From positions 1 through 25,634 of IMG/VR virus record IMGVR_UViG_3300033153_001599: a stretch of 25,634 nt of DNA; one strand, given 5' to 3'. Each line of letters opens with the position of its first letter. Position 1 is the stretch's first letter. The DNA is from a virus. The notes under the pieces are model-generated. The model was not told where the DNA came from and searched no databases. It saw only the letters and a list, made by a program, of their open reading frames with translations. A program made the position numbers and the translations under genes. Of the stretch, positions 3,576 through 20,411 are shown piece by piece.

Positions 3576-3934
3576 TATATAGTTACCCTCCGTGTTACTA
3601 TGATTTTACCACACAAAAGGTACGTAACTGTGTCAGCTCCGCTAGTGAGCTTTACATCAAACACGCCCTCTACGAAATCAAACGCAGCGGTTTGCGCTGC
3701 TGTCATGGTAAAGTCCATCTGACCAGAAGCCCCAGTCAGGACAATACCGTTCCCGTCTGAGTCAAGGTCGAGGAAAGACTCTCCGCCAACATGCTTCCTG
3801 ACAGACATCTCTACCGTATAACCAGAGAGATTCTTAGCTACGTCGTTATTGTCAGTCAGCTTCAATGTGAACTGACGCGTAGCTCCCTGATGAACGAAAA
3901 AATCTCTTACGCTTACTTTATTTATTTTAGCCAT
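3575..3934 (-). CDS. small beta-sandwich tail-associated protein
   Basis: This is a 119-residue protein with an alternating strand pattern. The sequence from QFTLKLTDNNDVAKNLSGYT through GIVLTGASGQMDFTMTAAQT to GKIIVTRRVTI follows the pattern of small immunoglobulin-like proteins often found beside tail and baseplate genes (BppU N-terminal-like in style): a polarity-of-input phrase, an 'l..G..G...~l' turn and a closing 'G.i.V...VT' strand. A structural role in the tail or fibre attachment is inferred. It starts at ATG 3934, overlapping the previous stop by one base (TAATG), and overlaps the fibre gene in the same way. Confidence 0.6.
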   Translation of the reverse strand: MAKINKVSVRDFFVHQGATRQFTLKLTDNNDVAKNLSGYTVEMSVRKHVGGESFLDLDSDGNGIVLTGASGQMDFTMTAAQTAAFDFVEGVFDVKLTSGADTVTYLLCGKIIVTRRVTI

Positions 3935-4329
3935 TAGAATAGCACCTCTCTTATAACCTTGTTTGCTTTCTCCTGTGTATCAACGTCTTCAGCATCTATG
4001 TCTACCACCTCAGCAGAACCTTTATACTCCCTTAGGAGTTTTTGCTTCATTATAACATCTTCTAGCTTCCTTCTGTCATGCCAATGCTTTCCGTTGATTC
4101 TAATTATAATCGTCTTTGGAGGCACATCGCAGACAAAATCAAGTACCGCGCCACCCCTCCTGTAAAAACCACCAAGAAAAGAGTCTTGGTACTCAAAGTC
4201 TACTTTCAGCATCAGAAGAGCTTGTATTACAAACCACTCTTCCTTGAATCTTACTTCTTGCCCGTCGTAAACTCCCCCAACCTTAGATTCTGGGGTTTCA
4301 AGTTTAGCAAACTCGTATGCGTCAGCCAT
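3934..4329 (-). CDS. Vsr/DUF559-like endonuclease-fold protein with altered catalytic positions
   Basis: This 131-residue protein has the layout of the small PD-(D/E)xK endonucleases of the Vsr/DUF559 type: a helix (EEWFVIQALLM, 30-40), strands, AVLDFVCDVP (61-70) carrying the conserved Asp (D64), a strand IIIRINGKHWH (74-84), then a helix (RKLEDVIMKQKLLREY, 87-102) and a final strand VVDIDAEDV (108-116). In active members the strand reads roughly I-E-x-D/K-G-x-x-H; here R77 and N79 stand where the acidic residues are expected, while G80 and H84 remain. It is therefore probably not a nuclease. It sits between tail genes, abuts the tail hub gene (TAG-ATG) and has a GAGG ribosome site. I recall similar proteins in tail blocks of uncultured phages, but did not search. 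Confidence 0.6.
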   Translation of the reverse strand: MADAYEFAKLETPESKVGGVYDGQEVRFKEEWFVIQALLMLKVDFEYQDSFLGGFYRRGGAVLDFVCDVPPKTIIIRINGKHWHDRRKLEDVIMKQKLLREYKGSAEVVDIDAEDVDTQEKANKVIREVLF

Positions 4330-6935: not shown

Positions 6936-8069
6936 TTAGCTCCCTAACCTAGGCGTCCTAGCCATGTTCCTTGTAACTCTACCCTGTACCCTTATTCGCT
7001 CCATAGCCTCATTCTGTACCGCCTCGTTCATAAGCTGAACCTTGTGTGGGTCAGCTTCACCATACTGAGAATAGTAACTTCGATAAAGATTTACTGAGGC
7101 AGCCCACTTCAACCACCTGTCGTCAATCTCCGTATCAATCCCATCGTCGTCGTCGACTAGTTCTGGGTGAGTTCCAATATACCAAAGCCTTATCTTCATA
7201 TCGCCAGTACCAGGCTCTTTGCCAGCCTTGAAATAAATGTAACCACTGTTCTCGTCCCAGTAGTATTGCTCCTTATAGTCGTAAGGCGAGTCTTCGGACT
7301 GGGCGGTTTCAAACTTCTTTACGTTAAGAACATTGTCTGGCAGAGTATAAATCTGTGCATCGGAATCAGTAGTTAGGGTTTCGTCGTGCTGTAGGTAATC
7401 TCCAAAATCAAGTAAAGCCGTGTTTATAGCAGAAACAATATCCTCTTTACTAAATAAGTAGGGGACTACTGCATATCTATCGCCACCGATAATAGCCCCT
7501 GTCAGTGCGTCAAACGTAAACACTCCCTCCGCGTATGAGGTTACAGTTCTCATCTTCCCGACATTAGCTCCAGAGAGCATAATAATGAACCCTCTGTCCC
7601 ATGTTTCTGCTGGCTCTAGTCTTCTCTTTATGTCCGTGAGGGTTGTTGTGCTGCCTGAGGTAGCCAGCCCCTCCTTTACTCCGCCAAGTATCTTCGCTAC
7701 TTGCAAAACAATACCAGAGAGGCTTCTTGAGCTACCAGGGGTAGCGTCAGCTGGAACAGACGGAGACTCATTCTCTTGGAGGATGTACAAATCCTCAAAT
7801 ACTGGCAATGCGCCAGCCACGTGTACTGCAAGCCTTAGTAAACCAGGAGTATTCGTATCTGTTGTGTCCAAACTACAGGTGTAATACCCCAAAGAATCGT
7901 TTACTGGTGCAGTTGCCTCATGTTTACTAGCTAAAGCGCCACCGTTTTTCGATAGCTTAACGTCCGTATACGCTATTGATAAACCATTCTCAGCCGTCTT
8001 ACCGTCAGACTCATCGAGGAAAGCGCCTATTAGGATATCTATAGCTGTGTTCTGTTTTATCGTTATCAT
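6936..8069 (-). CDS. head-tail connector / neck adaptor-like protein fused to a beta domain
   Basis: This 377-residue protein is built of two parts. Residues 1-105 (ITIKQNTAIDILIGAFLDES, KLSKNGGALASKHEATAPV, LGYYTCSLDTTDTNTPG) form a small beta-sandwich of a type common in phage neck and tail proteins. After a linker with a short helix, residues about 140-200 make a beta unit (ETWDRGFIIMLSGANVGKMR) and 205-377 a mainly helical part with two strands (EDIVSAINTALLDFGDYLQ, IRLWYIGTHPELVDDDDG, KWAASVNLYRSYYSQYGEAD) that resembles head-tail adaptor proteins. Start ATG 8069 overlaps the previous stop by one base. It precedes the tail hub gene, as adaptor genes of short-tailed phages do. The fusion of the two parts is unusual, and the role is inferred. 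Confidence 0.55.
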   Translation of the reverse strand: MITIKQNTAIDILIGAFLDESDGKTAENGLSIAYTDVKLSKNGGALASKHEATAPVNDSLGYYTCSLDTTDTNTPGLLRLAVHVAGALPVFEDLYILQENESPSVPADATPGSSRSLSGIVLQVAKILGGVKEGLATSGSTTTLTDIKRRLEPAETWDRGFIIMLSGANVGKMRTVTSYAEGVFTFDALTGAIIGGDRYAVVPYLFSKEDIVSAINTALLDFGDYLQHDETLTTDSDAQIYTLPDNVLNVKKFETAQSEDSPYDYKEQYYWDENSGYIYFKAGKEPGTGDMKIRLWYIGTHPELVDDDDGIDTEIDDRWLKWAASVNLYRSYYSQYGEADPHKVQLMNEAVQNEAMERIRVQGRVTRNMARTPRLGS

Positions 8070-9406
8070 TATTCCTTTATCCTTTTTGCTCTATATTGGT
8101 ATACTTTATTAGCGATGTAGGTCTTTATAAGCTCGCTTAGTACGCTACCACTGCTAGTAAGTGTGCCAGCAAGCAACTTGAGCACCTTTTTAGATATACT
8201 ACCAGCACTAGTGAGAGTTCCTGCTAACGCTTTCATAGACTTCTTGCTTACAGCGCCAGCACTGGTTAGAGCTCCAGTAAATAACATAAACACCTTCTTG
8301 GCTATAGTACCTGCCGAAGTCAGTGTACCAGCTAGTGCCTTCATAGTTTTCTTACCCACGTTGCCAGCGCTAGTTAGCGTACCAGCAAAAGACCCAAACA
8401 TCTTCTTGGCTATAGTACCAGTAGGAGTTAACGTGCCAGCAATAGACTTATAGTATAAAGTGCCAGTATCAATAAGGTCACCGATTACACTACCTATAGA
8501 AGTTAGTGTACCTACTAATGTCTCGAACATCTTTTTAGCTATAGTACCAGTGCTAGTGAGTGTCCCAGTAAACGACTCGAACATCTTCTTGGCTACAGTA
8601 CCAGCCGAAGTCAAAGCTCCAGATAACGATACTGATGTCTTTCTTACAATCGTACCAGCAGATGACAATACACCAGAAAAAGCTTTCTTTGCCTTCTTTG
8701 TTATTACCCCAGCACTGGTGAGTGTTCCTGCGCACGCTTGTTGGTAAGTAGTAATTTTAGCTTTGAGTGAAGCTCCAACCTGTACCCAGTATTCGTCATT
8801 ATCCGAATCAGTCCAAAACATTGTTTGGGATTCGGCAGCGCTGACAATCTTATAAGAGGCTAGGGCTACGTCAGCGCCAAGGTCCTTCAGATGAGCTTGT
8901 GTTTGTCCAGCACCAATAGTAAGTCTATTAGGAAGGGATTGGTTAGTAAGGGAACACTCAATTAGAATTACATCTGCTTCGTCATTGGTCCATGAAATTG
9001 AAGGTGAACCGTTGCCTGATTGCTCTGTGGCTACAACGTCTACTTCAAGCTTCGCTCCATTTATCTCAATAAAAGAAGCCTGTAAGTGTGTGACTAAACC
9101 GCCCTGCGTAATCCTAAAAGCACGTGATACGCTAACTTCTGGGTCATTTAAAAACCAGATTGAAACGTGCCCATCACAGGTAGCGTCATAATACTCATCT
9201 ACCTTCGTGAACGCTAAGGTAGTGTAATCACTTCCGTTATACTGCCCAACGGCAGATATGACCCCATCAGATGAGCTTGCATCGTAAATAACGATTGGTA
9301 AGACAACCGCAAGGGTACTAGCGCCTAGCGTTTTTCCGCCAGTAGTGATTGGCGTAGAACCTGAAGCTTTGTAGAAGTCGTGAATAGTCCCAACAGTAAT
9401 TGCCAT
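8069..9406 (-). CDS. structural protein with jelly-roll-like N-terminus and eleven 18-residue repeats
   Basis: This 445-residue protein is probably a virion surface or tail component. Residues 1-220 are a beta-rich domain (TLGASTLAVVLPIVIYDASS, VSIWFLNDPEVSVSRAFRIT) of a type common in phage structural proteins. Residues 227-431 are about eleven copies of an 18-residue unit, consensus G-T-L-T-S-A-G-T-I-A-K-K-x-x-x-x-[FL]-[AT]; copy 5 (299-323) is longer by seven residues. The last 14 residues are basic. Such GTLTxxG...KK repeats occur in fibre-like proteins I know from uncultured phages. An in-frame TAA lies just before the ATG at 9406, so the start cannot be further upstream; the ribosome site is weak. 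It overlaps the next gene by one base (TAATG). Confidence 0.65.
   Translation of the reverse strand: MAITVGTIHDFYKASGSTPITTGGKTLGASTLAVVLPIVIYDASSSDGVISAVGQYNGSDYTTLAFTKVDEYYDATCDGHVSIWFLNDPEVSVSRAFRITQGGLVTHLQASFIEINGAKLEVDVVATEQSGNGSPSISWTNDEADVILIECSLTNQSLPNRLTIGAGQTQAHLKDLGADVALASYKIVSAAESQTMFWTDSDNDEYWVQVGASLKAKITTYQQACAGTLTSAGVITKKAKKAFSGVLSSAGTIVRKTSVSLSGALTSAGTVAKKMFESFTGTLTSTGTIAKKMFETLVGTLTSIGSVIGDLIDTGTLYYKSIAGTLTPTGTIAKKMFGSFAGTLTSAGNVGKKTMKALAGTLTSAGTIAKKVFMLFTGALTSAGAVSKKSMKALAGTLTSAGSISKKVLKLLAGTLTSSGSVLSELIKTYIANKVYQYRAKRIKE
8114..8728 (-). repeat. eleven coding tandem repeats of 54 bp
   Basis: The region codes for residues 227-431 of the repeat protein as head-to-tail 54-bp units, with one unit lengthened by 21 bp. 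DNA copies have diverged at many third positions while the protein consensus stays close, which points to selection on the protein. The repeat also creates long open frames on the plus strand, which are shadows. Confidence 0.9.
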
Positions 9407-9467
9407 TTAGATACCCAAATGCCCCTTGACTTCGTTTGAGAAATCAATTAAGTAGAGCTTCACAAGT

Positions 9468-9776
9468 TTATCCGCCAGCCGAAACTGTCAGCTCGTAAGT
9501 GAATTCGATTTGGTCTGTGTCTTCTACGTTTATGGCAGAAAATACATGTCTGTCTAGCAACGTAGTACCAGTTGATTGGCTGAAAAGACCGTGCTCAGTA
9601 ATAGCTAAGCTTGAGCCATAAGTTATAGTACCAACCGATGTATAGACATTGGCAGCACCGTTCTGGTCTCCAGTTGCACGACCTACAGCATCAGTTGTTT
9701 CAATGTCGGTATCAGAGACATTGGCGGGAGTTGTGCCCACACCTGAGTCGTGGTATTTGAAGTCTCCAATTTCGGT
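9468..9776 (-). CDS. 3' part of a frameshifted beta-rich phage structural protein
   Basis: This frame codes 102 residues beginning TEIGDFKYHDSGVGTTPANV and ending QIEFTYELTVSAGG. The pattern (KYHDSGxGTT, then ITYGSSLAITEHGLFS, then TLLDRHVFSAINV) is the C-terminal part of a family I know from tail/neck blocks of uncultured phages, where it is fused to an N-terminal part ending in TTAFVNFLV. That N-terminal part lies directly upstream in another frame (see the next gene and the junction at 9774-9780). The frame has no strong start of its own; a GTG at 9740 is available but cuts off conserved residues. Expression as a separate protein is therefore unlikely, and the full product would be about 197 residues. 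Confidence 0.65.
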   Translation of the reverse strand, partial: TEIGDFKYHDSGVGTTPANVSDTDIETTDAVGRATGDQNGAANVYTSVGTITYGSSLAITEHGLFSQSTGTTLLDRHVFSAINVEDTDQIEFTYELTVSAGG

Positions 9777-10062
9777 GGACCAAGAAATTCACAAAAGCAG
9801 TCGTAATTAAACCATGAGCTACTACCCCATAATCAACTACCTGCCCGTTGTGAATCAGTTTAGCACTCAGTCTGCCAGTTGACGAAAGAACGCTAGTCAA
9901 CTTTGAGGCGAACTGCATCACGTGATACGTGAAGAAGTTTCGCAAGTAACTAAAACTCAGTACGTTCTTTAGCGTCCATATGAAAGGAGCTTTCACGTAG
10001 CCTTTTATCAGCTTCGTTTTTAGTCTGCCCTTCATCTTTGTTCTATTATTTTTGATTTTCAT
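9712..10062 (-). CDS. 5' part of the same frameshifted structural protein
   Basis: The ATG at 10062 has a good ribosome site (AGAGGGAACA before it). Residues 1-95 (MKIKNNRTKMKGRLKTKLIK, then LSAKLIHNGQVVDYGVVAHG and LITTAFVNFLV) are the N-terminal part of the protein whose C-terminal half is in the next frame. After FLV the open frame continues for 21 more residues (HRNWRLQIPRLRCGHNSRQC in part) that do not look like a natural C-terminus, then stops at 9712. Either the sequence carries a one-base error or indel, the gene is truly broken, or a +1 ribosomal frameshift is used. A hairpin at 10084-10103 separates it from the decoration-like gene. Confidence 0.65.
   Translation of the reverse strand: MKIKNNRTKMKGRLKTKLIKGYVKAPFIWTLKNVLSFSYLRNFFTYHVMQFASKLTSVLSSTGRLSAKLIHNGQVVDYGVVAHGLITTAFVNFLVHRNWRLQIPRLRCGHNSRQCL
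9774..9780 (-). other. frame junction (+1) between the two halves
   Basis: On the minus strand the reading goes ...TTC TTG GTC | C | ACC GAA ATT GGA. Skipping one C at 9777 joins FVNFLV directly to TEIGDFKYHDSG, so a single +1 change restores one protein. There is no long homopolymer and no zero-frame stop at the junction, unlike known stop-driven +1 sites. Confidence 0.6.
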
Positions 10063-10484: not shown

Positions 10485-11456
10485 TTATGCTGCCTGAATG
10501 TTGTAGAGCCTAGCAACTGAGCGAGGGTTGTAGAAGTACATTCCAACACCCCAGTCAATCATCGTTCTATAGGATACACCATTCTCCAACAAGCCCATGT
10601 CTACGGTATCTATGTTGTCAAACTGCCAACCCTTTAGATAGGGTTCGCCAAGTTTTAGAGCATAGATGCTCGTGAACGTCGCGCCTGTGGTGGCTGTGCC
10701 GTTTGCTAATTCAGTGTTAGGCATTATGAGTGTGCTCTGGTCTTTCTTCACACCAATGTCTACGATTTTCGGTCCGCCTTCGCCAAAAGTCGCTAAGCTT
10801 CGACCAAAAGTATCTTTCGTCGATGCATAGTAACCCAGTGCTCGAAGGGCAGAGAGTAACCGTAAGTATAGTGTTGAGTTCGTGAGCAGCACGTCACACT
10901 TATGTCCATCCACTGTGTGGATTAATTCTTCAATTCCGTCAACCAATGTTGCCTGGTCAGCAGCTAGTGTACCACCGTCTGCTGAAACGTCAGGTCCACC
11001 AGCGTCTATGGATTGGGCAGCGTCTAAATCATTAATGAATCTGTAGTGTAGACCTACCATTTCCTTATCGTTGCTGGTTGGATTGCCATTTATGAACATG
11101 TCGTTGAACTTGTATGCCATTGAGGTCACAAACATTTCTGTCTGTAACGCCCGCTGGTTAACTACCTGATTCTTCGCTTTGATGTACTCTTTAGGAATAT
11201 CAATATAGCCACCTAAGAAGGCGACTCTTTCCTGCAAGTTCTCCGTGAGACCTTTTGATTCCGTGTAGGATTCGCCGATTTCACGAGCTGTAATCGTAGG
11301 CAGAGTTTTAGTTCTGAGCATTTCGATGTTCAAAGTACCTGGAGTCTCAAAAGAGAGAGTTTCCAGCATAAATGATTCACGTCTGAAGATGTCAATAACC
11401 GCTTTCTTAAGCGGTTGCGTCGCTAAGCGACTGAAATCTGCAAGTGTAAAACTCAT
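10485..11456 (-). CDS. major capsid protein, HK97-type fold
   Basis: This 323-residue protein is the shell subunit. It directly follows the scaffold-like gene. Features typical of HK97-type capsid proteins without a fused scaffold are an N-terminal helix (FSRLATQPLKKAVIDIFRRE), an extended E-loop-like strand region (38-80, LSFETPGTLNIEMLRTKTLP and the following YTESKGL), a long spine helix with NQRALQTEMFVTSMAYKFND, and a C-terminal A-domain with DVLLTNSTLYLRLLSALRAL and the closing strand SYRTMIDWGVGMYFYNPRSV. No protease gene is seen nearby, so cleavage of the N-terminus is not expected from the sequence. Ribosome site CGGAG precedes the ATG. The call rests on size, position and fold pattern. 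Confidence 0.85.
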   Translation of the reverse strand: MSFTLADFSRLATQPLKKAVIDIFRRESFMLETLSFETPGTLNIEMLRTKTLPTITAREIGESYTESKGLTENLQERVAFLGGYIDIPKEYIKAKNQVVNQRALQTEMFVTSMAYKFNDMFINGNPTSNDKEMVGLHYRFINDLDAAQSIDAGGPDVSADGGTLAADQATLVDGIEELIHTVDGHKCDVLLTNSTLYLRLLSALRALGYYASTKDTFGRSLATFGEGGPKIVDIGVKKDQSTLIMPNTELANGTATTGATFTSIYALKLGEPYLKGWQFDNIDTVDMGLLENGVSYRTMIDWGVGMYFYNPRSVARLYNIQAA

Positions 11457-12280: not shown

Positions 12281-12291
12281 TTATTTTACAA
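12263..12291 (-). promoter_or_regulatory. promoter for the scaffold-capsid cassette
   Basis: The -35 box is TTGTAA (12291-12286) and the -10 box TATAAT (12268-12263, perfect) with a 17-bp spacer; the start is expected near 12256. The -35 box lies inside the last codons of the giant protein gene. The segment from the -35 box through GACAATT is nearly the same as in the late promoter at 25044-25072. Confidence 0.7.
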
Positions 12292-15200
12292 GTAGCGTGT
12301 AGTTTGGAGCGATTTCATAGTTTAACCATCTTTTGAAGTCTTTTCCAGGTTTACCCGCTGTTATCCACCAATCCTCTAATGCCATTAGAGCACCAGCCCC
12401 TAAAGGTTGGTTAAAGGTGAAGTGGGCAATCAAGCTATCTGACAACAAGGCAGGAACATCTTTCATCTCCTCTTCTGTCAAATGACCTTTCAGCCCATCT
12501 TTAGTCTCGTAGTTTATAGAACCAGACTCTACCACCGAAGAGATACCTGGTTTTTTCTCCAGATAATCTGCTTTCCAGTCTCGGTATTCCTGGAATTGCG
12601 GAAAGTCTCTTGTAAACTGATACCTCTCGCTTTCGGGTAGGTCATAGTATTTCCCTTGTAGGACGTACCAAGTCGGGAATAGTTTTTCCCTCTCTTCGAT
12701 GAAAGCTCCGTAGTCCTTGGCATGTTGGTCGTCCCACGCATCTAATTCTTGTACTGGTTCTTCCAAGAACGCTTCTTGTGCTTCTGGGATAGATTCTGGG
12801 ATTGAAGAGCCCAACATCTGTGCCCATCTAGCGAGCGTGTTTACGTCTACAGAGTATTCATCCTTCGTCGCGTCTTGAAGGAAGGCTCTCTGGAAATCTT
12901 CTCCGAACGCCTCTATGGCTACTGTTTGGTTAGCTTTATCCAAGCCTGTGAATAAGTCCCATATATTAGTTATCAGTAGGCTCTTAGCTTGTAGCTTTGG
13001 GTCGTTTATAAAGATATTAGCGCGTAAACGATACTCTGGGTGGTCATTGTAGAATTCATTCATAGCGGTCTTGTCTCCAGTAGCGTTATAAATCTCCCAC
13101 GCTCTGTTGTTTTCCCTCTGGTGTCCTCTGTATTCGAGTTCGCCCTGAGAGATTACGCCGTGCGGGAACATAGACACAAAAGTCGTAGCCCCTATAACAG
13201 CTAGATTAGCTCCTCCTTTTTCAGCCATAAAACCCAGATACCCTGGTTGCTTCAGGTTTACTTCCTCTAGAGCTCTCGCATAAGCCATGTCGTATACCTC
13301 AGAATCGTACTTCCCGTTACTCATATCCAATAACGCCTTCGAGTAGTCCTCTGGACTTATCTCGCTCATAGTCATCATTCCAGAAAGCGCTCTTTTTACG
13401 TAGTAGTCACCGAAAGAACCGAACTGCGCTTGCGCTGGTGTCATACCATAGGCTTGGCGAACTTTGCCTTCTGCCCAAGCTGGAGCACCAACTATCGCCC
13501 CAGCAGCGCTACCTTCACCTAATACTCCCTCTACCATGCCCTTCATTTCTCTAGATAAGTTCAGTATGGGTGTCGGCGGTATCTCCTCTGGAGAACCTGT
13601 CAACAGATTCCAACCAATGTCTATGTTCATAGCTGGTTGCATAAACTGGGAAGCGAGAGTGTACGGGTCAGAAAAACCAGTGTTCTTGTTTGCCCATTCA
13701 AGAGCCATGTCCCACACATCACCCTCTCCCGTTTCTCTAGCCTCCATAGCCTGCTCTTCTGTAATCTCTCCGAGATGCGCCATGTCTTTCAAGTGATAAT
13801 AAGCAGCCGTGTAGAGTTGGGTCTTGTCGTCATTGAATACGTCTAGCATTGAGAATAGAGAACTAGGCGGGAAGAATTGCGAGTATGGGTCGAAATACGT
13901 TGACCCTCCAGCCCACTTCGGTAAGAATGCCCAAGGAATGCGTAGTTTATTCTCCATCCTGCTCGGAACTCCAGTTTTACCCATCTCTTTCTGGGCATTT
14001 CTAAACCTATAGAATGAGGTGAACATGCTTGTGTTATCAAAAACTCTCATAGCCCAGTTCCTAAACGAGTGTGTGTACCAGAATTGGTACGGGAAGACCA
14101 CCGAATAAGCCTCGTCCATCCCAGTTCTGTTGGTATAATCAAGCATCGTGTAATCCTTCATAGCTTCACCATACTTCACTGCTTGGAACTTGTTTGACCT
14201 CATGTTCTGGTCAACTTGGTTCAGCCACGAGTTTATTTGTTTAGATTGGTCTACCGTTAACTGAGACCCGTCGTACAGCGTATTGCTTCTAATATCACTA
14301 GAAATCTCTGCGCCTATGCCGTCCAGCATCGGATTCAAGTGGTTCATGTACGCTTCCATACTCATGATGCTGTCGTTATTGATTTGGCTAGGAACTCTCC
14401 CCTTTGAGGATACAGCAAACATAGCGCCCTCAATTTCGGCGTTATGTAGCTCCATAATCAGTAAAGTATACTCTTTGTTATAGAACTTACTGTTTCTAGC
14501 CAAGCGGTCTCCGTAGCTCTCTGGCGGGTCGTCTACCATGCTTTTTCTGTGATTTCTTACAGCCTCAATCATCTTTTTTCTTACGTTCTTGACGTGTTCT
14601 ATCCACGTCTTTACAACCTTAGTGTGTGATTCTGGCATAGTACTGCCATCCATCCTAGTATAGGGCATCTCGATACCTTCGACGTCTGCTATCCTCCGAG
14701 ATTCCGAGGCTAGGTCTTTTATCATTCCCCAGTCGTTTTCGCTTATCTCTACGTAGACCTCTCCCCCGCCAGCAGACCTTGTCTTCGTTTCGATACCCAT
14801 AGCTTTTAGTTTTTCCGTCAAAACCCCCGCTGTCTCTTCCTTCCACGCTCTTTCCGACCTAACGATACCGTTATCGCCTACTTCCTTGAACCATCTGTCT
14901 GCCTGTTGAACAGTGTTGACTTCTTGGATAGTCATATTTCTAGGAAGACCGCTATCTACTGGTAAGTCTTCAAGTGGGTATTTATCAAGGAATTCTCTTG
15001 ATGACGCTACATCATACTTTGCTCGCGATTCTTCTGGTGTCAAAAACTTCCCACTAGACGTCTCGTAAAAACCAAACTCACCGTCATCAAGAATACTGAA
15101 TTCTTTGCCATCGCTAAGTCTACGAATTGTACCCACATCAGGCTGGTCATAACCCCCGCTTTGCTTAGCGGCATTTATCGCATCAACGTGCAAAACACCA

Positions 15201-18200
15201 ACAAAAACGTCTTCACCAATCCTATACGCTGGTTTTACAGGAGCACCCGCCCTAAAACGCTTAAGAGTCCCAGCGTCGTATATATAGGGGGATTCTAGCG
15301 AACCAATTTCTGGTTGAGCCTCACCGTCAACAGCTTTGATTCCAGCAAGCTCTTCCACAGAGGTTGGTCTCTTACCGCCGAACAGAGCCTTAATAGACCT
15401 ATCGTACATCCTCATCTCGAAGTCGTAGGCAGTATCAGCAAACCCGTCGACTTCCGCCCTTGCCGCATCAAAAGCCAAGTTCTTAGCTTCGACGTCTGCG
15501 TACTCCGCATTGAAAGCTCTGCGCCATACAGTACCGCGTTTCTTAATAAATCCCGTCCACTTTTCTTCTAGCATATTCATTGAAGTAGTGTATGTGTCAT
15601 ACCTTGCTCTCGTTTCTGGATTCATCTCCGCAAAAGCACCGAAAAGACCTTTAGTTGTCTCCTTCCGCCACTTATTAATGTACTCGAAGCGCTTACCCTC
15701 GGATACGTCTATTGCATCCCACACCTTACTTCTTTGCTTGTTAGTCATCCCTTCCATAGAAGATATGGCAGCGTCAATAGCTCTGAAGTGGGCTATATGT
15801 TCCTGCTGATAATAGATTTGCATGTCGACATACTCTTTCGCAGCAGTATAAGCACCAGCATCCCTCATACGTGCCCGAATATCAGCTCCCCTCGTCTTGA
15901 AGTCTTGGTCCATCTTCCTTCTTATGAAGTCCAGCGCACCAGTTTTTACCCTATCGATAGCACGAACAACATCGTCAACCGTCTGCGCACCAGCTAACTC
16001 TGTCTTCAAAGACCGTAGGACACTTTCATCAATTACCTCTCTAAGAATTTCTGGCGTGAGAAAGTCCCTAGCCATATTCTCAGCAACTCTTCTTGTGTAG
16101 ATATTAATATCTATCTCTTCAGGATTACCTTTGAATATACCAGTCCTCACCTCGTCCATGTTCAGAGAGCCTATCACTTTAGCCATGATAGATTTCTTTA
16201 TGTTCTCTGGCAGGTTGATATTGTCCATACCTGGAATAGCACCAGCCCACGTATTGTCCCAATACTTCTTTAAGCCGTTCATGTAGGATTTTCTAGCGTG
16301 CGCAGACTCTATGTTGTTGGATAGTTTCTTGAAAACAGAAACTGCGTTAGCTCCTCTTGAGAGTTTTTCCATCCACTCGTGCTCGAATTTATAGTTAATG
16401 TCGTCAATTTTTATCTTGGTTCTCTGAATATCCATCCCCTTGCCCTCGAATTTCCAGTCACCAAAGTCGATTGCGTCATTCCAAGTCGCAAATCCGAACC
16501 TCTTGTTATAAGTATCTATATCAGTCATCTTCATGTAACCAAAGTTATCAGAGGCGACACGGGTCACAATGTTGTTTATAGCGTTATAAATAGCGTATCT
16601 TGGGTTCAGTCCAAGAACTAGAGCACCTTGAATCTGCCTTTGGATATTCGTATATCTAATTAGCTTTGTTATGGCGCTTTTTTCGGTCAACATGTACCTA
16701 TTCGTAGCGTATTCACCAACGAATTTGGAAAGCTTATTCAGCATGTTAACATGGAATAGCTCGTCGTTCCAGGGCATCTTCCCAGGGTTCTCTCCTTCCC
16801 ACGTAAACGTCTTCAACAAACTACCTATCGAAGACGTAGCATCGTTGTCGCTCATAGCGTAGAACCTATCAAACCCAGCTACTGGTTCTTCCGCCGTCGC
16901 GTCCCTGAACTTTTTCCAGAGAGTAGCCGTATCGTTTTTCTCAACGTAACCTAGAACATCTTCAGCCTCTATCCCCAGGGCTTTAGCCATCTGGTACAGT
17001 TTAGACCTGGAGTCTCCAGTCGCAAACCATTTCTGGAGCTCAGTCCCAGGGATACCTTTAGAAATAGCCTTCCTAATAGCGTCCCGAAACACGTACGAAA
17101 CCTGTGAACCGTAGGCAGCTGGGTCTACCACTATCTTTTGCAGAGCACTCCTGTGCACTTCACCACCAAGCTCTGCGCCTAAGGGTATGTACTCTCCTTT
17201 AAGCTTATTCAAGCCGTTCAGCTTGGCTTCGATTTTTATAAACCCGTCCCCAGGCTCTAGCATTCCCATCCTATAAAGGATACCAACCTGAGCCTCTGGC
17301 GTTTTCCCAGTCATCATCCCAGATACATGCGTCATCATGTTTTGGGCGAATTTGATAGACTTAGAGCTATTTGTTTGGCTAGAAAGGTAAATAGAGAGCT
17401 TCTTTAGTAAACCAGCTCCCTCAGGTATAATCGTCGGGTGATACCAACTAGGCATACCATCCTTGCCTATACCACCTAGCCATCTCTCAATAGGAGACCA
17501 CGTAGGAGGTGCGTAGAAGTTTTTCACCTTGCCAGTCTTCGTGACTATCTGTCTTGCAGCGTTCTGTGCATACCCATCAGTATAAGTTCTCCTCAGGTTC
17601 TCAAATACAGCCGCTGCCCCACCGTAAGAACCAGACTCTCCTTTTATTAGCTTGTATATGCTCCCAGCGACCATGTTAACTGGGAACGGCATCGCGTCGA
17701 TAAACGCATTACCTCTAGCGTTCTCGGCAGCTATAGATATGTTAGCCGATAGACGCATATCGTCCATCTTCCCATAGATTTTCAGGAAGTCAGCGCCTTC
17801 TGGGGTTGCTTGTAGCTTCGCCATAAGGTCCGCAGAGTCTACCTTGCTGAAAGCCTCTATGAACTTGTTTATATCAGAAGCATCATCAGCATAATCCATA
17901 GCCTTAGTAAGAAACTTCAAATCACCAGCGGCATCCATAGCCTTTAAAGCTTTTGAAACCTTACCGTCAGCTATCCACTTTGGTATTCTGTTTGACATCA
18001 TTGGCAGGACATTCAATGGGTCTACTATGTTCTGCATGACCAAGTCGGACAACACGCCTTGGAATCCAAACTCCTCTTCCCAGTGTGTTATGACTTCGTC
18101 AAGTTCAGCGCCAGCTAGTAGCTCGTCCTGTATAGCGTTAACAGCTTCCTTGCCCCACTTCCAGCTTTTGGGCACTTTCACTGTGGTAGGAACACCCTGT

Positions 18201-19417
18201 TCGATTCTCCATATCTCGTCTGGGTCAGTTACCCTACTCTCAAACAAACCCTCCGCACCAGCGTAATCGAGGATAGTGCTCTGTTGTCTGACATCCCAGC
18301 GCAGTTGACTAGCCTGCCACGCAGACTTCATATACTCGCTCATGGTGTAGTCACTAGCCCCATCCAGAACTTCCTTAAACTCTGGGTCTGTTGCAGCTAG
18401 TTCGAGAGTTCCTAGCACCTGCTCCGAACCTCTGGATAGAGTCGAAAGCACGCTACCAGCCCACGTGTTTACTGACGCCATAGTTGGGTTATCTAGTTCA
18501 TAGTGTCTATCGGCGTAACTTGCTAACCCAAAAGCAGCTATGAACGGAAGCATAAAAGTAGCTATCCCCACGCTTGGTATCAAAATACCAGCTGCAATAG
18601 CAGCCATTGGCGCTACTGTAAACGCAGCCATAGCACTGCCACCAACATCCCTCCAGAACATCTTATCCTTCTGTTCTTTCGTCATCTCTTGTCTGGGTTG
18701 TTCCATCCAAGGCTGTGAGTAGAATGGGGACATGAGGAGCTTCTGTTTTGCATTCAGGCTATCAATTCCACCAGCATTGTATTTTCTCCTGTACTCCTCG
18801 TCAGCAGCTTCATTCATGTACTGGTGAGGGAACAACATATCAGCTGGGGGTAACTCTAAACTACTCAAATAGTTGTATATGTCGCTGTTCTTGTCGATTG
18901 TCCAATCTTCGACAGGCTTGTCTTTGTTTGTGTAGGATAGGAATTTGTAAGCTTCTTTGATATCGTTGATAGGAAGCCACTCTGGTAGCATCTCTCTCGG
19001 GGTGTTCTCAATGATAGTGTTGTAGGTGTCTAATGTCAGAGGGTCTGTATAGTACCTAAACTCCCCACGACCTGAGTATATGACCCTATTTGGGTCTATA
19101 CCTTCCGCCTTATTGAAGTATTTATCAAAATAACCTGCGGCTTGAGCGTTATACGGCACGTCCATACCAGAGGGCGTAACCATAGTCGAGTACGGTCTTC
19201 CTGGTAACGGGTGCGCTTTCTCCTTACCGCCGTATCTCCTTAGCTGCTCAAGCTGGGTTATATCGCCTCCCTTATACCCAGGATAAGGCATTCTACCACC
19301 GCCGCCTATAGGTGCTTGCGCAGCGAGCGATTTTATTCTATTCTGTACTATAGCGCTTTTGCTGCCAGTGCTAGTACCTTTCCCATAGCTCTTTATTTCA
19401 AAGGTCTTTTCGGGCAT
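12281..19417 (-). CDS. giant 2378-residue virion protein, probable internal/ejected protein
   Basis: This is the largest gene, between the Gly/Trp-rich gene and the scaffold gene. Its N-terminus (1-60) is basic and Gly-rich. A long hydrophobic stretch lies at about 258-302 (AMAAFTVAPMAAIAAGILIP and on), long enough for one or two membrane passes. Most of the rest is predicted helical with many Trp, Tyr and Asp. Recognisable phrases are GEDVFVGVLHVDAINAAKQS near 1401 with GFYETSSGKFLTPEE near 1449, and FPYQFWYTHSFRNWAMRVFD near 1770, with a Pro-rich 'IPW..LP' segment after it. I know similar phrases from giant proteins of uncultured phages. No polymerase, protease or lysozyme motif was found. 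An ejected core protein like T7 gp16 or N4 gp50 in role is the best guess; a tape measure is unlikely from position. It overlaps the upstream gene by one base. Confidence 0.55.
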   Translation of the reverse strand: MPEKTFEIKSYGKGTSTGSKSAIVQNRIKSLAAQAPIGGGGRMPYPGYKGGDITQLEQLRRYGGKEKAHPLPGRPYSTMVTPSGMDVPYNAQAAGYFDKYFNKAEGIDPNRVIYSGRGEFRYYTDPLTLDTYNTIIENTPREMLPEWLPINDIKEAYKFLSYTNKDKPVEDWTIDKNSDIYNYLSSLELPPADMLFPHQYMNEAADEEYRRKYNAGGIDSLNAKQKLLMSPFYSQPWMEQPRQEMTKEQKDKMFWRDVGGSAMAAFTVAPMAAIAAGILIPSVGIATFMLPFIAAFGLASYADRHYELDNPTMASVNTWAGSVLSTLSRGSEQVLGTLELAATDPEFKEVLDGASDYTMSEYMKSAWQASQLRWDVRQQSTILDYAGAEGLFESRVTDPDEIWRIEQGVPTTVKVPKSWKWGKEAVNAIQDELLAGAELDEVITHWEEEFGFQGVLSDLVMQNIVDPLNVLPMMSNRIPKWIADGKVSKALKAMDAAGDLKFLTKAMDYADDASDINKFIEAFSKVDSADLMAKLQATPEGADFLKIYGKMDDMRLSANISIAAENARGNAFIDAMPFPVNMVAGSIYKLIKGESGSYGGAAAVFENLRRTYTDGYAQNAARQIVTKTGKVKNFYAPPTWSPIERWLGGIGKDGMPSWYHPTIIPEGAGLLKKLSIYLSSQTNSSKSIKFAQNMMTHVSGMMTGKTPEAQVGILYRMGMLEPGDGFIKIEAKLNGLNKLKGEYIPLGAELGGEVHRSALQKIVVDPAAYGSQVSYVFRDAIRKAISKGIPGTELQKWFATGDSRSKLYQMAKALGIEAEDVLGYVEKNDTATLWKKFRDATAEEPVAGFDRFYAMSDNDATSSIGSLLKTFTWEGENPGKMPWNDELFHVNMLNKLSKFVGEYATNRYMLTEKSAITKLIRYTNIQRQIQGALVLGLNPRYAIYNAINNIVTRVASDNFGYMKMTDIDTYNKRFGFATWNDAIDFGDWKFEGKGMDIQRTKIKIDDINYKFEHEWMEKLSRGANAVSVFKKLSNNIESAHARKSYMNGLKKYWDNTWAGAIPGMDNINLPENIKKSIMAKVIGSLNMDEVRTGIFKGNPEEIDINIYTRRVAENMARDFLTPEILREVIDESVLRSLKTELAGAQTVDDVVRAIDRVKTGALDFIRRKMDQDFKTRGADIRARMRDAGAYTAAKEYVDMQIYYQQEHIAHFRAIDAAISSMEGMTNKQRSKVWDAIDVSEGKRFEYINKWRKETTKGLFGAFAEMNPETRARYDTYTTSMNMLEEKWTGFIKKRGTVWRRAFNAEYADVEAKNLAFDAARAEVDGFADTAYDFEMRMYDRSIKALFGGKRPTSVEELAGIKAVDGEAQPEIGSLESPYIYDAGTLKRFRAGAPVKPAYRIGEDVFVGVLHVDAINAAKQSGGYDQPDVGTIRRLSDGKEFSILDDGEFGFYETSSGKFLTPEESRAKYDVASSREFLDKYPLEDLPVDSGLPRNMTIQEVNTVQQADRWFKEVGDNGIVRSERAWKEETAGVLTEKLKAMGIETKTRSAGGGEVYVEISENDWGMIKDLASESRRIADVEGIEMPYTRMDGSTMPESHTKVVKTWIEHVKNVRKKMIEAVRNHRKSMVDDPPESYGDRLARNSKFYNKEYTLLIMELHNAEIEGAMFAVSSKGRVPSQINNDSIMSMEAYMNHLNPMLDGIGAEISSDIRSNTLYDGSQLTVDQSKQINSWLNQVDQNMRSNKFQAVKYGEAMKDYTMLDYTNRTGMDEAYSVVFPYQFWYTHSFRNWAMRVFDNTSMFTSFYRFRNAQKEMGKTGVPSRMENKLRIPWAFLPKWAGGSTYFDPYSQFFPPSSLFSMLDVFNDDKTQLYTAAYYHLKDMAHLGEITEEQAMEARETGEGDVWDMALEWANKNTGFSDPYTLASQFMQPAMNIDIGWNLLTGSPEEIPPTPILNLSREMKGMVEGVLGEGSAAGAIVGAPAWAEGKVRQAYGMTPAQAQFGSFGDYYVKRALSGMMTMSEISPEDYSKALLDMSNGKYDSEVYDMAYARALEEVNLKQPGYLGFMAEKGGANLAVIGATTFVSMFPHGVISQGELEYRGHQRENNRAWEIYNATGDKTAMNEFYNDHPEYRLRANIFINDPKLQAKSLLITNIWDLFTGLDKANQTVAIEAFGEDFQRAFLQDATKDEYSVDVNTLARWAQMLGSSIPESIPEAQEAFLEEPVQELDAWDDQHAKDYGAFIEEREKLFPTWYVLQGKYYDLPESERYQFTRDFPQFQEYRDWKADYLEKKPGISSVVESGSINYETKDGLKGHLTEEEMKDVPALLSDSLIAHFTFNQPLGAGALMALEDWWITAGKPGKDFKRWLNYEIAPNYTLLVK

Positions 19418-20193
19418 TAGATTCTCCAGTTCACTAGCTTTCTGTACCAGTTAGAGTACGAGCCACCGCCACCGCCCCATCCACCGCCCCATCCACCGCC
19501 CCATCCACCGCCACCGCCCGAACCAGTACCCCATAAGTCCCAACTATAACCGCTGGGATTTAGCCCTGGCTCATACCCCCCATCCCAGCCAAGTAGGTCT
19601 TTCCATCTATCGGTTTTTCTTCTCATCGCGTCCTCACGGAGGATATCCATTGCCTCATCACTCATCCTCCCTCCCCCTCCAGATGAGCTTACTGGATTAT
19701 ACTTATTTCCGCCGCCAAGCGGGGTATAGCGAGGGTCTCCGCCAGCAGGATACGCGTACCTATCCCTACCGCCACCGCCAAGTGGTGTATAACGAGGGTC
19801 GCCTGTTTCTGGCACGTAATACCGAGAGTCTCCACCAGTAGGAACGTACCTATTTGGGTTAGTTGCGTAATCAGTATTTCCCCAACCTCTACTGAACACG
19901 GAATTGCCCAAACCCCCCAGGATATACTCAGGGTTAGTCTCCCACGTAGCCTGGGGATTGGGGCGAAAATCCCACGAGCCCTGCGCGCGGGCACGCATAT
20001 TCGTAAAGAAAGCCCTCCAGTCAAACGGCTGCCGCTTAGTTGGCGACAACCCACCTGTTTTTCTAATGGTGACTACTCCAGGAGTACCAGTCCCAGTTGC
20101 GCTAGACACAACGTTAGACTGGTCACTTATTAGGGCTGGTACTGCCTCTGGTTCATCTAATCCACTACCAACAATTCCAATATCAACACCCAT
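19417..20193 (-). CDS. Gly/Trp-rich low-complexity protein of unknown function
   Basis: This 258-residue protein has no recognised domain. Residues 1-60 are ordinary. Residues about 115-175 hold repeats of the type GGD/GDP-RY-x-P-L-G-G-G (DPRYTPLGGG occurs twice). Residues about 176-205 form a charged helix (SDEAMDILREDAMRRKTDRW). The C-terminal region has three GGGW units flanked by further Gly and closes with YSNWYRKLVNWRI. It lies between the 72-residue gene and the giant gene with one-base TAATG overlaps on both sides, so it is translated together with them and may work with the giant protein in the virion. It looks intrinsically disordered. A flexible linker or core-associated protein is possible but not shown. 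Confidence 0.6.
   Translation of the reverse strand: MGVDIGIVGSGLDEPEAVPALISDQSNVVSSATGTGTPGVVTIRKTGGLSPTKRQPFDWRAFFTNMRARAQGSWDFRPNPQATWETNPEYILGGLGNSVFSRGWGNTDYATNPNRYVPTGGDSRYYVPETGDPRYTPLGGGGRDRYAYPAGGDPRYTPLGGGNKYNPVSSSGGGGRMSDEAMDILREDAMRRKTDRWKDLLGWDGGYEPGLNPSGYSWDLWGTGSGGGGGWGGGWGGGWGGGGGSYSNWYRKLVNWRI
19477..19512 (-). repeat. three tandem 12-bp coding repeats (GGGW units)
   Basis: On the plus strand CCATCCACCGCC occurs three times in a row, flanked by further CCGCC copies. It codes the GGGWGGGWGGGW stretch. Such short arrays change length easily by slippage. Confidence 0.9.
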
Positions 20194-20411
20194 TACGCAC
20201 CTCCTCCATATCTCTCATTCATAGTCTTATATAGTTTAGGTTTCTGAGCCTTCAAGCTTTCCTTTATCTCGGCAGGCATCGAGCTCCAAATACCTTGTTT
20301 GGTCGCTTCGATTTGCGGCGCACGCCATGTTTTTGTGAACTGTCTGCTAAATTGGGCGAACCTTGTCTGCCCCTTCAAAATCGAGTCATTCGCATTACTA
20401 ATGTTTAACAT
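20193..20411 (-). CDS. small basic helical protein, unknown
   Basis: This 72-residue protein (net basic) begins MLNISNANDSILKGQTRFAQ and has one helical core (PAEIKESLKAQKPKLYKTMN) ending GGGA. No family was recognised. The ATG at 20411 has GGAGGG five bases upstream and follows the portal stop by one base; the stop overlaps the next gene (TAATG). Its place between portal and the Gly/Trp-rich gene suggests a virion or head-assembly accessory protein, nothing more. Confidence 0.6.
   Translation of the reverse strand: MLNISNANDSILKGQTRFAQFSRQFTKTWRAPQIEATKQGIWSSMPAEIKESLKAQKPKLYKTMNERYGGGA

Follow-up and report, generated by a model that had tools for sequence, protein, structure and literature searches.

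What does a protein of 2378 residues do between the portal and scaffold genes of a virus? The question is raised by a 25,634-nucleotide stretch of viral DNA, here called the window, of which a single ORF, the giant, takes up 27.8% (28 percent in an earlier note made from the letters alone). The ORF placed there at 12281-19417 is confirmed, but on the minus strand, running from 19417 down to 12281; the plus strand of this interval contains many stops. Its start codon lies in TAATG, overlapping the stop of the preceding gene, with GGAG six bases upstream. The same ORF is present in independent assemblies and, over its length, shares 80.2% amino acid identity with the homologue in a close relative, L002 (dN 0.128, dS 0.611). 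With dN/dS of about 0.2 in this comparison, the giant appears along its whole length as a real ORF under purifying selection. Sequence searches with the giant alone against Pfam, PHROGs, NCBIfam and the PDB were empty, which agrees, at the sequence level, with the note's remark that it carries no known catalytic motif.

In the order of minus-strand transcription, the genes are TerL (PHROG 2, E 4.5e-31), a putative portal, proteins of 72 and 258 residues, the giant, a putative scaffold and the major capsid protein (MCP), followed by small genes, an SU10-type adaptor (PF24175, 5e-8), an 867-aa protein, tail/fibre genes, a GH25 lysozyme (profile match, 6.6e-29), a 125-aa protein that we take to be holin-like, and a replication protein O-like gene (Table 1). 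The putative portal had no match among profiles or in the PDB; portal and scaffold are named by position, size and synteny, and so named they do enclose the giant, as had been proposed. The earlier note considered this gene order unusual. Within the lineage it is instead fixed as TerL-portal-(small genes)-giant-scaffold-MCP-adaptor. Of 37 loci with sufficient flanking sequence, 35 have the portal upstream of the giant, and in 60 of 65 the scaffold or MCP follows it downstream.

Table 1. Features of the giant and of its neighbours in the window
Feature	Coordinates	Strand	Basis or remark
Giant protein, whole ORF, 2378 aa	12281..19417	minus	ATG start, without internal stops
N-terminal shell, residues 1-1324, almost all alpha-helical	15446..19417	minus	N-shell HMM and AF2 model
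Conserved hydrophobic / glycine-zipper-like segment, residues 258-302	18512..18646	minus	uncharged run and hydropathy; recurs in homologues
Lineage-specific insert in exchange region, residues ~1325-1595	14633..15445	minus	the window's only "cargo"
Compact domain, residues 1494-1580	14678..14938	minus	model, pLDDT mostly 84-93
Last helical N-shell piece, residues 1597-1686, after insert	14360..14629	minus	N-shell HMM
C-terminal shell, residues 1687-2378, helical	12281..14359	minus	motif PYQFWYTxSxxNWAxR
Major capsid protein (MCP)	10485..11456	minus	PF20911 4.6e-14, phrog_212 4.7e-46
Putative scaffold, 247 aa	11495..12238	minus	position and synteny; homologous in 67 loci
258-aa Gly-rich protein	19417..20193	minus	translationally coupled to giant; similar-size protein in most relatives
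72-aa protein	20193..20411	minus	same-size counterpart in many relatives
Putative portal, 630 aa	20413..22305	minus	position and synteny; homologous in 41 loci

Two other genes of the window are recorded here in their own right. The 131-aa protein encoded at 3934-4329 (minus) contains a 'LDFVCDVPPKTIIIRINGKHWH' stretch, similar by eye to Vsr/DUF559-type PD-(D/E)XK nucleases; in 36 related loci a homologue comes after the 867-aa gene of the tail module, an odd place for a conserved nuclease-like gene. Between the capsid genes and the adaptor, at 8069-9406 (minus), is a protein of 445 aa in which units of ~20 residues (GTLTSAGTIAKKMF...) are repeated in tandem to make up the C-terminal half.

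A first search returned two near relatives of the giant and Podoviridae sp. ctzlq274 (MW202725, Manatee Spring); a profile of the common C-terminal ~690 residues then gave about 80 distinct contigs, mostly from IMG/VR. The ctzlq274 genome is circular, complete at 41.8 kb and filed as a podovirus. Its giant is 24% identical to ours and stands in the same gene order, with a LysM protein upstream, unlike the window, and is annotated just as "hypothetical protein", the only description found in the sole GenBank phage record set. Intact homologues measure 1628-3865 aa (median 2639). The C-terminal shell of ~690 aa is common to all of the ~80 contigs, and an N-terminal shell of ~1300 aa occurs in nearly all homologues whose 5' part is present; an HMM of ~1300 positions, built in three rounds, recovered the N-shell at 63 of 83 loci, many of the remainder being 5'-truncated. 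Between the shells is a slot of about 100-2800 aa (median ~850). The family is thus one of two conserved helical shells framing one exchange slot, and it is large, almost undescribed and largely unannotated. Judged by these alignments, both shells of the window member are intact. Residue 1324 was dropped as the slot border since the N-shell tail resumes farther on, HMM positions 1246-1310 aligning to window residues 1597-1665, so that the window's insert sits just inside the end of the N-shell.

Both halves of the giant were modelled with AF2 from alignments of 53 and 71 homologues. The models are nearly all helical, with mean pLDDT of 70 (N-shell model, residues 121-1320) and 75, and pLDDT mostly exceeds 85 over the final ~590 residues. 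Foldseek and VIA-align searches with both half models found nothing above background in the PDB or BFVD (best Foldseek E 0.2 and 0.0075, respectively, TM <0.1); as the models are long and of medium confidence, an absent match is not evidence of a new fold. Structure prediction, proposed in the earlier note as a check on the giant, provided helical models of both halves and no significant PDB or BFVD match.

The length of the giant would suit a tape measure protein or a fusion or assembly artefact, and one of 24 shell pieces, an isolated case from one relative, gave a weak PHROG tape-measure match (2.4e-4). Gene context rules the tape measure out, as the earlier note had argued: the giant precedes the scaffold and lies outside any long-tail genes, no tape-measure or tail-tube genes were recognised in the window, the adaptor is of the SU10 podovirus type and the complete relative is a podovirus by filing. 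Lengths also vary about twofold, mainly through the slot, and selection along the whole ORF and its recurrence in independent assemblies speak against an artefact. We give this explanation next to no weight.

It is the slot that sets the members of the family apart. Pfam searches on the slots of 73 relatives (a few of these pieces are 5'-truncated, so they include shell sequence) matched ddrB-ParB in 19, ART-PolyVal in 13, GGDEF in 6, strawberry-notch-type AAA_34 in 4 and PBECR5 in 2, with single matches to zeta toxin, LPD1, LPD5, RadC, GNAT, SNF2, FtsK-gamma and DUF6908. A zincin motif (S/T-S/T-x-x-HExxH) is present in 29 of 54 complete slots. Several domains may share one slot, as with ParB, ART and GGDEF in L085, ParB, zeta toxin and the zincin motif in L008, and ParB, ART and PBECR5 in L007. 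We also note that GGDEF domains are found in the giants of L055, L085, L094, L010 and L017, that those mapped on the C-shell tree fall on different branches, and that the GGDEF motif is intact in L010, L017, L055 and L094. In L050, a close sister of the window, the slot (9452-9994) has no Pfam match; its sequence 'IIFGHGTGTGD...FVIACDD' is reminiscent of a cysteine peptidase of clan CD (caspase/CHAT/C80-like), possibly an unlisted type of cargo.

Closely related giants can differ sharply in their slots. L037 and L055 are 67% identical in their N-shells up to residue 1408/1349 and 78.5% identical in their C-shells from residue 1575/2306 on; the middle is unalignable, with 166 aa in one and 957 aa, holding zincin and GGDEF, in the other. 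The triple slot of L085 is reduced to ParB alone in its relative L086, and 149 aa of L002 are absent from L005. Mapped on a 54-row tree of the C-shell, the zincin must have changed state 12 times or more, and GGDEF 4 times for 4 carriers. Together, these pairs and the tree changes show repeated gain, loss and replacement of slot content within a conserved frame.

The slot of the window member is nearly empty. Pfam matches nothing in its insert of ~250 aa, and the model is of low confidence over the first ~150 residues of this insert. About 149 aa of the insert are absent in L005, and its homologues are confined to L001, L002 and L005. What the model does predict is a compact alpha/beta domain of 86 residues, in the order helix-strand-strand-helix-strand-strand-helix, which is the sole candidate effector. 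The earlier note's suggestion that an enzyme domain could be hidden in the giant holds for the relatives, which carry enzymes in this very protein; in the window member none was recognised. Since the window's sister clade on the C-shell tree includes L116, with an ART slot (E 3.7e-14), a degenerate ART was considered for the window slot and rejected, there being no ART signature and a different predicted topology.

Conceivably, the window giant is a complete polyvalent effector with an enzyme that has diverged beyond recognition, and its insert, above all the 86-residue domain, acts as an injected nuclease or other toxin. All recognised slot contents in relatives are enzymes or effector-type domains, and the compact domain is kept in L005 at 40% identity while adjoining sequence has been gained or lost. 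Its topology also matches the LAGLIDADG fold, with a Z of 7.3 to I-DmoI (rmsd 3.2 over 80 residues), although by the tool's own note values below 8 are not diagnostic, and with further resemblances to several I-DmoI, I-SceI and WhiA entries. Against this, the LAGLIDADG motif is absent, no LAGLIDADG family matches in sequence even at E 10, no catalytic signature was identified in the domain, and the insert is restricted to three loci. LAGLIDADG is a weak lead only, because neither motif nor sequence supports it, and we consider an active divergent effector unlikely here. The near-empty slot suggests that the window giant probably serves mainly the entry step.

A role in entry is consistent with the N-shell. 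Its stretch at 258-302, picked out as hydrophobic in the earlier note, is the longest D/E/K/R/H-free run of the giant (45 residues), and its 40-residue Kyte-Doolittle mean is 1.79 versus 0.48 at the giant's next best place. An uncharged run of at least 24 residues falls within residues 140-340 in 33 of 47 homologues with an intact N-shell, compared with 44 of 536 control stretches of 200 residues taken elsewhere in these proteins. On sequence criteria the hydrophobic segment is conserved across the family, and it may insert into a membrane. In several relatives the giant has peptidoglycan-related proteins as neighbours, in keeping with a role in entry: the counterpart of the 258-aa protein is LysM in L004 and LysM/tail-X-like in L011, and GH25 lysozyme genes lie between portal and giant in L014 (3390-4565) and downstream of the giant in L030 (12604-13830) and L129 (12068-12829). 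Also between portal and giant in L014 (2465-3421) is a calcineurin-like phosphoesterase-like protein (weak, E 0.004).

We consider it probable that the giant is an internal protein of the virion, located near the portal, which leaves together with the DNA, anchors in the membrane by its N-shell and delivers the content of its slot, and that the window holds a cargo-poor version; the same judgement takes in a lineage of short-tailed phages with at least one member a prophage in Anaerolineaceae. That the giant could be an internal, ejected protein had been put forward in the earlier note, and gene order, the hydrophobic segment and the effectors of relatives make this likely. The invariable position of its gene, after the portal and before the scaffold, suggests that the giant would be packaged in the head, close to the portal, as the virion assembles. 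At infection, it would exit through the portal with the first DNA, its glycine-zipper-like segment entering the membrane and its helical shells forming or lining a conduit, by analogy with T7 gp16. Slot-encoded content would thereby reach the cytoplasm, where the enzymes of relatives would presumably target the defence and physiology of the host; the zincin peptidase, often adjoining them, could cut them free.

A head component that is not ejected, such as a giant portal-binding protein or an internal scaffold or core protein that stays in the capsid, could also be helical, could be encoded between portal and scaffold, and need have no homology to known ejection proteins. Yet ART, zeta toxin, and ParB-like and PBECR nucleases would serve no purpose without access to the host, and the conserved membrane-like segment likewise argues against retention, which we regard as improbable. 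The type of host envelope matters for ejection as well: the GH25 endolysin here could suit a Gram-positive-type wall, which would count against the ejection reading. According to a review of ejection proteins (PMC8954989), phi29-like phages, which infect Gram-positive hosts, lack them.

Searches with the giant gave no sequence or significant fold match to ejection proteins, MuF or the N4 virion RNA polymerase. The place between portal and scaffold is that of the MuF head protein in SPP1- and Mu-like phages. The giant shares this position with SPP1 gp7 and Mu gpF (portal and scaffold by synteny), and the idea is the same, a portal-associated head protein fused to effector domains; it is, however, several times longer, and its effector is internal, not a terminal fusion. 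A search for the MuF domain PF04233 in the window and 10 related virus records was empty at E <= 10. The ejection proteins of T7 (gp14-15-16) and P22 (gp7-16-20) include a large one, gp16, that becomes inserted into the inner membrane (PMC8954989). The giant is likewise helical with a membrane-like segment, in a size-graded trio of adjacent genes (72, ~250 and 2378 aa). Unlike theirs, its gene lies before the scaffold, not after the tail genes, and there is no detectable homology, neither sequence nor Foldseek searches relating its long helical models, of medium confidence, significantly to either trio. The N4-like virion RNA polymerase is also a giant protein of a short-tailed phage, and the N4 class shares the zincin with many relatives of the giant; single-sequence and profile searches gave no PDB match to it, and no polymerase homology was detected in the shells.

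In content the family is akin to the polyvalent proteins (Iyer et al. 2017, PMC5512222), which include P1 DdrB/DarB. The domains in relatives' slots, GGDEF included, are those of polyvalent proteins. For the proposed delivery, the internal Dar/Ddr proteins of P1 and MuF-effector fusions (PMC5512222) are precedents, as are the T7/P22 ejection proteins. Relatives combine the class-defining DdrB-ParB, ART, PBECR, zincin, helicase, GGDEF and zeta toxin in one giant late-gene product, encoded between portal and scaffold/MCP among the late virion genes, and L085, L008 and L007 have two or more disparate domains per polypeptide. The window protein has no recognisable Pfam, PHROG or NCBIfam domain, and we therefore treat it as a cargo-poor homologue and do not file it as a polyvalent protein. 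The family differs from polyvalent proteins as catalogued in that its one exchange region is enclosed by two long conserved shells, to which no known fold was matched, and that its locus, between portal and scaffold, is fixed.

Some evidence on hosts comes from two MAG contigs among the homologues, one from Anaerolineaceae and one from another member of Chloroflexota, which were the only ones confirmed in a scan of 84,980 species genomes; the C-shell was not found in a plasmid collection. In the Anaerolineaceae contig, L008, ordinary chromosomal genes lie on both sides of the phage genes and a tyrosine-recombinase-like gene adjoins them at one border, which together indicate a prophage integrated in an Anaerolineaceae (Chloroflexota) chromosome. 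Of 396 genomes of the class of this host, 4 gave a match. The prophage is a host lead for an uncultivated lineage, and the window phage's own host may differ.

The surprise is the fixed-shell, swappable-payload family, not the window protein alone. It is tempting to speculate further, and we do so tentatively, that this is an undescribed, widespread chassis of two fixed, structurally novel helical shells and a single slot, with which short-tailed phages deliver interchangeable enzymes, cyclic-dinucleotide synthases included, through a membrane conduit of their own making; the window member would then represent the form without cargo, and its small domain would have a new effector fold. Polyvalent proteins have so far been catalogued by their effector domains, and the giant's family separates the shells from the payload: the unchanging shells should hold the packaging and translocation functions, and the slot the payload. 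A natural cargo-poor member such as that of the window shows the part needed for entry and may serve as a minimal chassis for delivery tests. The GGDEF domains of relatives, in giants encoded at a virion locus, are candidate injected cyclic-dinucleotide synthases. Finally, the family provides a common marker by which a large set of uncultivated podoviruses can be searched for, and it links one or more of these to Anaerolineaceae.
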